This document shows positions 45,585 through 47,721 of a stretch of DNA of 64,000 nt, piece by piece (positions within the stretch are counted from its first letter, which is position 1; each line of letters opens with the position of its first letter). A program made the position numbers and the translations under genes. The notes below the pieces were generated by a model. That model had not been told where the DNA came from and ran no database searches. It saw only the letters and a program-made list of their open reading frames with translations. Source of the stretch: Alicyclobacillus acidocaldarius subsp. acidocaldarius Tc-4-1 (GTDB lineage: Bacteria; Bacillota; Bacilli; Alicyclobacillales; Alicyclobacillaceae); NCBI RefSeq assembly GCF_000219875.1, contig NC_017167.1, positions 1,885,572-1,949,571 on the forward strand. Direction: 5' to 3'.

Positions 45585-47684
45585 TCAGTTCCACGCGGGC
45601 GGCTGCCGCAGACTTTCCACCACCACCTTCCAGTTCGTTTCCGGGCGATCGCAGCGAAAGCCCCGACAGACGAAGTACTGCGGGGTTCCATCTCCGGCCA
45701 TGGGGTACATGGACGCGTCGCCGCGCGCGTCACTCGTCAGCCAGACCGCCTCCGGCAGCTCCATAGCCCCGAGTTCCCTGGCCCGCCGCGCCGCTTCCTC
45801 CCGTGGCGCCGCGATGACGATTTCCGTGGATCCCACTTCGCTCATCATGGCCGCGGTCACGAGCCACAGGCAGTCCATGGGCGCCGACCTGATGTCCCCG
45901 CCAAACGCTCGCAAGAGTGCATCCAGCCGATCCGCGTATTCGGCGTCGCCGGTCAGCGCGTGCAACATCCAGAGGTTGTGTGCCGACTGACTGTTGGCGG
46001 ACGGCATCGCGCCGTCATACACGGGCTTCGGCACCGCGATGAGCGACTCCGCGTCTCGGCCGTAAAACGTGTACCCGCCCTGAGCCTTGTCCCAAAAGAG
46101 GGCATCCTGCACCGCCTGCCAATGCCTTGCGCGATCCAGATACGCGCGGTCGAGCGTCGCGCGATAGAGCTCCAGATACGCGGCGACGAGATAGGCGTGA
46201 TCGTCCGCATAGGCGAAGATCCCGGCTTCGCCGTCCCGATACCGCGCGAGGAGCCTGCCGTCATCAGGGCGCACCAGGATGCGCTCGATGGCAGCCACCA
46301 CCTCCGTGGCCCGGTTCACCCACGCCATTTCTCCAAACGCAAGGCCAGCGCGCGCAAGTCCATACGCCATGAGCGCATTCCAGGCGGTCAAGCACTTGTC
46401 GTCAATGGCCGGGCGTTCGCGCCCGTCCCGAACCGCGCGCAGCTTCGCGTTGAGGTCGTCGAGCTTCTGCCAGAGTTCTTCTTCGGTCATGCCGCGAGAA
46501 GCCGCAAACGCCGCCGGGTCCTGATCGATGTAGTTCGGCACGTTCGCGCCCTCGAAGTTGCCGGCTTCCGTGATGTCGTAGAAGGCGTTGAACAGTTCTC
46601 CATCTTCAGGACCGAGTGCCGCGATCACGTCCTCCGGCCGCCAGAGGTAAAAGCGGCCCTCTCCGCCCGCCGAATCCGCGTCTACCGCGCTGTAGTAAAG
46701 GCCCTCGGGTGATTGCATCTCGCGATCGAAAAACGCGACGGTCTGCCGGACGAAGCGCAGGAACGCCGGATCTTTGGCGTGGACGTAGGCGTCCGCATAC
46801 GCGGCGAGTGCGAGCGCGTTATCGTAGAGCATCTTTTCAAAGTGCGGCACGCGCCAGAACGGGTCCGTGCTGTAGCGCGCCATGCCGCCACCGACGTGAT
46901 CGACAATGCCGCCCCGCTGAATGGCGCGAAGCGTGGACAACGCCATGGCTGCCGCGCGCTCGTTCGGGCGCAGCCGCGCGTAGCGCAGCAAAAATTGCAC
47001 GCGGTGGAACGTGGGAAATTTCGGTGCCGGGCCGAATCCACCGTACTCGTGGTCAAACGCCGCTTCGAGCGCCTGGTACGCCTGGTCCGCGGCATCCCGG
47101 CCGCGCGCCTCACCCGCTTGTCCCTCGAACAGGGGCTGCATGCGCTCCGCCATGGATCGGCTCGCCCGTTCCAGACGCGCGCGATCCGTCTGCCACAGCC
47201 TGGCGATCTCCTGCAGGATCTGAATCAGCCCTGGCGGCCCGTATCGCGGCGTCTTGGGAAAGTAAGTTCCTGCAAAAAACGGGTACCCGTCGGGCGTCAT
47301 GATGATGGTCAGCGGCCATCCGCCCTCGCCCTGTAGCGCTTGGCAATAGGTCATGTAGATGTGATCGATGTCCGGGCGCTCCTCGCGGTCGACTTTGATG
47401 GCGACGTAGTGCTCATTGAGGATGGCTGCCACCTTTTCATCCTCGAAGGATTCGTGGGCCATCACGTGACACCAATGGCAGGTCGAAGGGAACTCCTTGG
47501 GCCCCCGAAGGGGCTACGAATAGCCGATGGACAAAAACACGGGCTTCGACTCGCGCTTGGCTCGTTGAAAGGCTTCTGGACACCAGGGGTACCAGTCGAC
47601 GGGCTGATGGGCGTGTTGGAGCAGATAAGGCGACTTTTCGTGGATCAATCGGTTTGTGTGCCTCGCGGGTCCTTCGTGAGCCAC
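45585..47684 (-). CDS. DUF255/YyaL thioredoxin-domain protein, interrupted by a 33-nt in-frame insert
   Basis: Two frame-matched pieces make one protein. The first ends [10 protein letters not shown] followed by TAG; after 33 bases the same frame resumes with [19 protein letters not shown] and runs intact to the end. The family sequence here is [15 protein letters not shown], so the insert sits exactly between the Ser and Thr codons. The rest has the N-terminal thioredoxin fold ([23 protein letters not shown]) and an alpha/alpha toroid glycosidase-like domain. Without the insert the protein would be about 688 residues, the usual length. I prefer the GTG at 47684; an ATG at 47720 lacks a ribosome site. 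It is either a recent pseudogene or a bypassed gene. Confidence 0.8.
47484..47516 (-). other. 33-nt insert with bypass-like features in yyaL
   Basis: Read on the minus strand: codon TCG, then TAG at once, then a G-CCCC-TTCG-GGGG-C hairpin that includes the G of TAG, then AAGGAG, six bases, and a second TCG from which the conserved protein continues. Identical take-off and landing codons, an adjacent stop, a tetraloop hairpin and a Shine-Dalgarno-like element before the landing codon recall T4 gene 60. A plain insertion with a TTCG duplication explains it too. Confidence 0.75.
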
Positions 47685-47721
47685 GCCGCGCACATCCTTT
47701 CTGGATTCGTTTTCCTTCATT

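Follow-up and report, generated by a model that had tools for sequence, protein, structure and literature searches.

Cases of ribosome bypassing are scarce. The signals of bacteriophage T4 gene 60, the mitochondrial byp elements and the rarity of other examples are described in passages of two papers (PMC5009743, PMC11194080). Beyond 81 inserts in the mitochondria of one yeast, passages of the former name T4 gene 60, a likely case in a Streptomyces phage and a report from Prevotella that was not followed up, the two latter being a proposed hop of 29 nucleotides (nt) in Prevotella loescheii and a proposed bypass in the terminase of Streptomyces phage Hau3 (PMC5009743). According to the same passages, the byp elements of Magnusiomyces capitatus mitochondria are many short inserts tolerated by bypassing with imperfect matches between take-off and landing codons, and the gap in T4 gene 60 is possibly the rescue of a gene split by mobile DNA (PMC5009743), a situation to which the one described here is alike. 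Here we analyze the gene yyaL (DUF255, PF03190), which lies in two pieces on the minus strand of a 64,000-nt stretch of the Alicyclobacillus acidocaldarius subsp. acidocaldarius Tc-4-1 chromosome (NC_017167.1, positions 1,885,572 to 1,949,571; hereafter, the window). From sequence comparison, we consider it likely that the gap between the two pieces is the fossil arm of an integrase attachment site, and that it is spanned by programmed ribosome bypassing. No report of bypassing in Alicyclobacillus, or of yyaL as an integration site, was found among the listed titles and abstract beginnings of open-access papers.

The 5' piece of the window gene (47514..47720, minus strand, as are all features below) begins with an ATG at 47720, matches PF03190 and comprises 68 codons, ending in SIGYS and a stop. 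Its last sense codon, the putative take-off codon TCG (Ser, 47517..47519), directly adjoins the stop TAG (47514..47516), whose last base is included in a hairpin G-CCCC-UUCG-GGGG-C (47501..47514), a reduced version of the UNCG-capped, 14-bp stem seen in relatives. A Shine-Dalgarno (SD)-like AAGGAG (47493..47498), probably also a remnant (GGAGTTYCCT) of the left arm of the element's attachment site (attP), is followed after six bases by the putative landing codon TCG (47484..47486) and by the codon ACC (Thr, 47481..47483), at which the frame resumes. Counted from the TAG through the second TCG, the gap measures 33 nt. The 3' piece (TCHWCHVM onwards, 45585..47483) then stays open for 632 codons, free of further lesions, up to the stop at 45587-45585. 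The two TCG codons, the TAG, the hairpin, the AAGGAG and the resumed frame had been pointed out in the original prediction, which was made from the window alone, and all of them are present where it placed them; the division of the YSTCHWCH motif between Ser and Thr and the undamaged downstream frame were likewise borne out. The twelve bases ACC TGC CAT TGG (47472..47483) probably represent the core of the attachment site, as judged by comparison of junctions and by the symmetry of the half-sites in relatives, and the crossover would lie at the TG of TGG (47474-47473).

The comparison with other strains, which had been suggested as a check, showed the same interrupted codon boundary in 14 of the 15 genomes of the genus; in the fifteenth (G004) the contig starts inside the gap, and the take-off side is out of view. 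The domain was found in 38 of the 41 genomes of the family, 32 of which have both pieces and a gap. The others are G004, cut at the gap, four genomes with an intact gene (G018, G019, G023 and G040) and one with 5' pieces only (G039). An even draw of 299 genomes at the class level gave 118 with a match, from which 28 stretches with short or doubled open frames were fetched. Of 80 homologues among the genome-contig matches listed, 72 are intact, four lack the motif and four are split, namely those of Syntrophomonas, Lacrimispora, Paenibacillus and locus L028 on a G038 contig. Altogether, 86 gapped loci were tabulated, and 58 of them run into a real yyaL 3' end (hereafter, gapped genes; 13 were supplied by the class-level draw). 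Most of the gapped genes belong to Bacilli and two to Clostridia, the class of Lacrimispora and Syntrophomonas. Excluded were L127 and L210, with no TGYCAYTG after the gap, and the frameshifted copy L221; the overlapping re-fetches L232-L237 were left out, as was L258 (take-off GGG) before the pairing count described below.

Although the residue before the gap was not preset as Ser, and gaps without an immediate stop would have formed a class of their own, the stop directly follows a Ser codon in all 58 gapped genes (TAG in 50, TGA in 6 and TAA in 2), at the same boundary as in the window, a recurrence far in excess of chance. The cases that fell outside this class are gapless copies of the type expected at a left junction (attL, see below) or degenerate copies. 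The take-off codon is TCG in 54 of 57 distinct class I 5' ends. Gap lengths range from 17 to 61 nt, the commonest being 54 nt (10/58), 51 nt and 33 nt (6/58 each); 26 of the 58 are not multiples of three, the 33-nt in-frame gap is common to all six members of the window clade, and a short-gap class of 17-21 nt is devoid of a hairpin. A sequence-pattern search gave 31 matches in 21 of the 41 genomes, compared with two for the reversed-pattern control; all 31 lie at yyaL 5' pieces (coordinates compared by eye), and no other gene with the exact pattern was found in those genomes.

Selection was analyzed in the six genomes of the window clade (15 pairs; proportion of synonymous differences, pS, about 0.4). 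The ratio of non-synonymous to synonymous substitution rates (dN/dS) is 0.034 in the last 50 codons of the 5' piece and 0.118 in codons 51-544 of the 3' piece, and the TCHWCHVM segment shows 21 synonymous and no non-synonymous differences, summed over pairs. The gap, when read as codons, has a ratio of the corresponding proportions (pN/pS) of 1.00, or 0.92 without G014. Strict selection on both sides of a neutral gap implies that protein is encoded by the two halves and not by the gap. Within the gap, the landing TCG is invariant in all six members, nearby bases turn over, and the AAGGAG is kept in three of the six. In an observation of a different kind, the last ten codons of the 5' piece (47517-47546) have a pS of 0.175 compared with 0.437 over the last 50; this deficit of synonymous differences before the take-off codon possibly reflects a further upstream RNA signal.

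A hop to the triplet preceding Thr would yield exactly the intact protein in the gapped genes, the exception being that of Lacrimispora (L037, 2985), which resumes at TGT (CCHWCH) and in which the hop would alter the residue before the CxxC motif. Take-off codon and landing triplet agree at a mean of 2.34 of three positions over 47 distinct sites, compared with 0.43-1.21 at twelve other offsets. With tRNAs assumed from the codon and wobble allowed, the take-off tRNA would form three pairs with the landing triplet in 34 of the 58 genes, two in 23 and one in a single gene; the two codons are identical in the window and in 26 of the 58. The observed pairing was reached by none of 20,000 permutations for 61 distinct sites, and by none of 20,000 for the 21 sites with a take-off codon other than TCG, values that overstate independence, the sites being related by descent. 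These 21 take-off/landing pairs are TCC/TTT (four), AGC/AGT (three), TCC/TCT and TCC/TCA (two each), and AGC/AGC, TCA/TCA, TCC/TCC, TCC/GCT, AGC/TGA, AGT/AGA, TCA/TTT, AGC/AGA, AGC/CGT and TCT/ACC (one each). As a control for the landing codon, the corresponding triplets were compared between the half-sites of the same copies: 17 distinct right half-sites have TGG (6), CGG (2) and others (9), and 19 distinct left half-sites have TCG (4), CCG (4), TGG (3), TCA (2), AGA (2) and others (4), a comparison that is suggestive only.

The stop lies within a 14-bp stem in 31 distinct class I sequences, where 94.2% of the cells pair, compared with 29.3-49.3% when the 3' side was slid and a mean of 92.9% when the 3' letters were shuffled among sequences. 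The covariation score is 0.136 versus 0.110 in shuffles (0/500), and at the pair involving the third base of the Tyr codon both sides are changed in eight sequences. A hairpin-like start is found in 71 of the 86 loci, with a UNCG loop in 58 of these, and is absent from 15. In L255, TAG..CTA is replaced by TGA..TCA, giving the stem UGACC-UUCG-GGUCA. Three relatives that were folded gave z scores of -4.07, -4.55 and -6.51. An SD-like GGAG precedes the landing triplet by 6-9 nt in many long-gap loci, the window among them.

Several points weigh against bypassing, besides the shared descent of the sites already mentioned. The exact identity of the two codons is not significant at the non-TCG sites (3/21, p 0.12), five distinct arms with a TCG take-off land on TGG, a middle-base mismatch, and the landing triplet of L027 is a stop triplet forming a single pair. 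Moreover, the matched TCG might reflect, at least in part, the TCG ACC of the host attachment site (attB). Shuffled stems give at least as many pairs changed on both sides (1.1, versus 1 observed) and further pair types (7.1, versus 6 observed). The hairpin of the original prediction does exist in the window, and the last base of the TAG belongs to it as claimed, but it is short: the stem is down to five pairs, only that one base of the stop is held in it, and its stability does not exceed that of shuffled sequences (z -0.45). L004 and L006 have lost the GGAG, and the short-gap class has none.

The origin of the gap is indicated by additional copies of the gene start. Several genomes carry extra yyaL 5' pieces without a 3' piece, and in G017, G030, G032, G038 and G021 those that share a contig with the real gene are found upstream of it, on the same strand. 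These stand-alone copies follow yyaL up to ACCTGTCAYTG and then diverge; the real gene of G017 (L129) and a stand-alone copy of G032 (L135) share 99.6% identity across 1,705 nt and split within the attachment core. The distance between copies reaches about 270 kb in G017, and in G030 genes resembling those of cytochrome oxidase (by eye; L235 12971-17899) lie between two 5' copies; owing to this spacing and these genes, mobility cannot be claimed for all of the DNA between copies. In many copies, the flanks of the core form a palindrome of the attachment-site type, symmetric about the TG of CAY-TGG. The half-sites agree at 20 of 24 positions in L128, L132, L135, L207 and L219 and at 19 of 24 in phages L167 and L170; the remaining scores range from 4 to 18, apart from the degenerate L258 (0). 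A palindromic attP with a short TG-centred core is typical of large serine integrases.

The junctions expected of an integration into yyaL are all represented. Uninterrupted gapless genes of the attB type occur in G018, G019, G023, G040 and G044. Junctions of the attL type, in which a gapless 5' half of the host gene runs into foreign DNA, occur in L225, L214 and L168; the right arm of L225 and the DNA following it agree with L142 of another genome (printouts compared), and L168 is the start of a phage contig that also carries head, connector and lysis genes. An attP-type arrangement, a gapped 5' piece with both arms, directly adjoins the integrase of the 151-kb phage contig L170; another is located at the end of phage contig L167. 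The 58 gapped genes represent the right junction (attR), for example in L169, a contig on which portal and minor-head genes are found, with its integrase upstream. These junctions fit integration into yyaL, implying that the gap travels on the element, and an integrase of the kind found beside the copies presumably made them.

The integrases are of the large serine type (Resolvase, Recombinase and Zn ribbon domains; PHROG 95, integrase); all three Pfam domains are present in five of six integrase open reading frames (ORFs), and the truncated L132 has two. Strong matches were found in 11 of 31 stand-alone-copy loci and in 3 of 53 gapped-gene loci tested, and in none of four gapless attL-type and five intact loci, counts that refer mostly to loci represented by few kilobases; longer stretches beside copies in G017, G030 and G032 (L233, L235 and L232) did contain an integrase. 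Weak matches were obtained in L027, L130, L131, L215, L245 and L251. No relative of these integrases was found within the window, and no second yyaL 5' half in the Tc-4-1 genome. The window clade has probably lost the element, as suggested by the arm remnant GGAGTTYCCT..CGACC that it has in common with G024 and G033. Three other genes of the recombinase family (PF07508) are located in the Tc-4-1 genome (G000:C1 1001115, 1196036 and 2379716), all far from yyaL.

An exact hairpin pattern had no match in viral contigs and the DNA search of phage records gave no match; the one protein match in a phage record (H1), to a faecal scaffold lacking annotation, was not considered further. A Paenibacillus plasmid match has a gapless 5' piece, with no annotated integrase in the stretch seen. 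Some contigs break in or near the attachment core (G004:C52, L165; G042 C83/C86, L206 and L208; IMG/VR L167), as is expected where near-identical 5' copies defeat assembly. Near some copies, eight proteins picked by eye and compared with defence families included matches to GajA and GajB of Gabija (L126 2503-6106), LmuA and LmuB of Lamassu (L136 2740-6267), a class II pAgo (L205 4391-6316), QatA (L207 41-1888) and DrmD (L131 1283-4192); yyaL may be a hotspot for defence islands in this order. Two further stretches, L250 (G276) and L257 (G122), have the appearance of elements that would restore the gene with no gap left: in each, an intact yyaL has upstream of it a gapless 5' half whose right side is foreign. 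Neither of these stretches yielded an integrase, and the ORFs of L257 resemble an arsenic cassette (motifs compared by eye). Such elements would support restoration of the gene as the purpose of the carried 5' end.

Taken together, these comparisons suggest the following model. Large serine integrases would insert phages and other elements into yyaL at the TCHW codons. The element would carry a replacement yyaL 5' end, so that integration joins the 5' end of the element to the 3' end of the host gene. The left arm of attP cannot serve as a palindromic integrase site and at the same time spell the correct codons, for which reason the carried 5' end would stop at the Ser codon (TCG TAG in the window; in the long-gap class the stop sits in a hairpin), with the arm following as a non-coding gap. 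The gap would consequently be the left arm of attP plus a stop module, usually with a hairpin, that ends the carried 5' end. A ribosome with Ser-tRNA in its P site would stall at the stop, release the message and slide across the gap. Re-pairing at the landing triplet (TCG in the window) before ACC would then give an uninterrupted GYS-TCHWCH protein as a single polypeptide, to an extent set by the efficiency of the hop. In the window clade, the bypass site would have been retained by descent after loss of the element. A bypass-like gap, as originally predicted, is accordingly the reading that these data support best, with the hop itself presumed; a point that had escaped the prediction is that the gap appears to be the left arm of an integrase attachment site, imported with a replacement gene start. 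Somewhat less firmly, we also think it probable that bypassing serves here as a widespread mobile repair device, whereby, in Bacilli and Clostridia, phages and elements bearing defence genes use the active-site codons of yyaL as their integration target, bringing a replacement gene start and a gene-60-like hop signal that evolved from, and shares bases with, the attachment arm.

The best-surviving alternative is a split gene, in which translation terminates at the TAG and re-initiates near the GGAG, YyaL being made as two chains. The position of the SD-like GGAG in many loci favours it, as does an in-frame ATG or GTG before Thr in nine of the 58 gapped genes (L146, L152, L153, L157 with GTG, L161, L169, L247, L248 and L249), in some cases at a good SD distance, for example GGAG-TTTCCA-ATG-TCG-ACC in L146 and GAGG-ATATAA-ATG-TTT-ACT in the prophage contig L169. 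The original claim that no start codon is usable near the AAGGAG thus fails in these nine and holds for the window, where no in-frame ATG, GTG or TTG lies between the stop and TCHWCH, and for the other 49 of the 58, which have none between the last in-frame stop and Thr; the ribosome cannot re-initiate at a canonical start before Thr in those 49. Moreover, in L147, L160, L226, L139 and phage L170 an in-frame stop stands right before the landing codon, which excludes weak upstream starts and leaves only TCG, GCG, TTT, TCA or Thr as the start. The window clade keeps TCHWCH at the protein level without a preceding start, and a split gene would need neither a piece that ends exactly at Ser nor a correlated landing codon. 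We regard two chains as an unlikely explanation of the site family, but one to be taken seriously, and variants that hop and variants that re-initiate may coexist within it.

Much less probable is a gene switch, in which YyaL would be off while the element is inserted and restored by excision. Phage-regulated genes that are restored by excision provide the precedent, and excision would indeed reunite the gapless host 5' half of the attL-type loci (L225, L214 and L168) with the 3' half. A switch, however, leaves the conserved 5' copy on the elements unexplained, and does not account for the window clade, where the gap persists although neither a related integrase in the window nor a second 5' half in the genome was found. 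Since the gap of the window is a multiple of three, in frame in all six clade members, readthrough had to be considered separately: the TAG would be decoded and 11 residues inserted before TCHWCH, right beside the CxxC motif. We rejected it as scarcely credible, given the pN/pS of 1.00 for the gap versus dN/dS of 0.03-0.12 on either side, and the 26 out-of-frame gaps exclude it further in other loci. A decaying pseudogene or inert integration scar, which is just as hard to credit, would account for an interrupted ORF with a stop, and an attachment-scar origin is supported, but the selection figures for both halves and for TCHWCHVM led us to reject it. Finally, a recent private insertion of 33 bp with a TTCG duplication, initially offered as the simpler hypothesis, is refuted by the presence of the gap in 14 of the 15 genomes of the genus and in other families.

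If the proposed reading is correct, a single target gene offers dozens of natural bypass sites with varied hop lengths and codon pairs. Such a bacterial family, with gaps of 17-61 nt and a built-in origin as attachment scars, would make the rules of take-off, sliding and landing comparable and testable. It would also mean that an element can target the active-site codons of a conserved gene without killing the gene, and that gapped yyaL genes need not be annotated as pseudogenes.

Compared with the known systems, the closest likeness is to T4 gene 60 (AF158101, gap 2803-2852). There too, a UAG directly follows the take-off codon, GGA UAG lies within a UUCG-capped stem (AUGGAUAGCC-UUCG-GGCUAUCUAU) that holds the stop, the landing codon is identical to the take-off codon, as in the window, and a GAG stands six nt before the landing GGA. 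Its gap is 50 nt when counted with the landing codon, compared with the commonest lengths of 54, 51 and 33 nt in yyaL. The differences are that the take-off codon of gene 60 is Gly (GGA), whereas that of yyaL is Ser (UCG, UCC, AGC, UCA or UCU); that landing in yyaL often involves a two-of-three match or wobble; that the 17-21 nt class has no hairpin; and that the yyaL gap appears to be an integrase attP arm, found on many elements and in many hosts, at which bypassing is deduced from sequence. The byp elements are mitochondrial, context-independent and spread over many genes, whereas the gaps described here affect one gene at one site, mostly with a structured hairpin, in bacteria and phages. 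The Prevotella loescheii and Hau3 cases are single ones, with no link to an integration site in the passages that describe them. With other large serine integrase systems, the yyaL elements have in common the domain set, the palindromic attP and the short core with a TG centre. They differ in that their target is a set of active-site codons and that they bring along a 5' gene end with a bypass-like gap, or, in some apparent elements of other hosts (L250 and L257), one without any gap.

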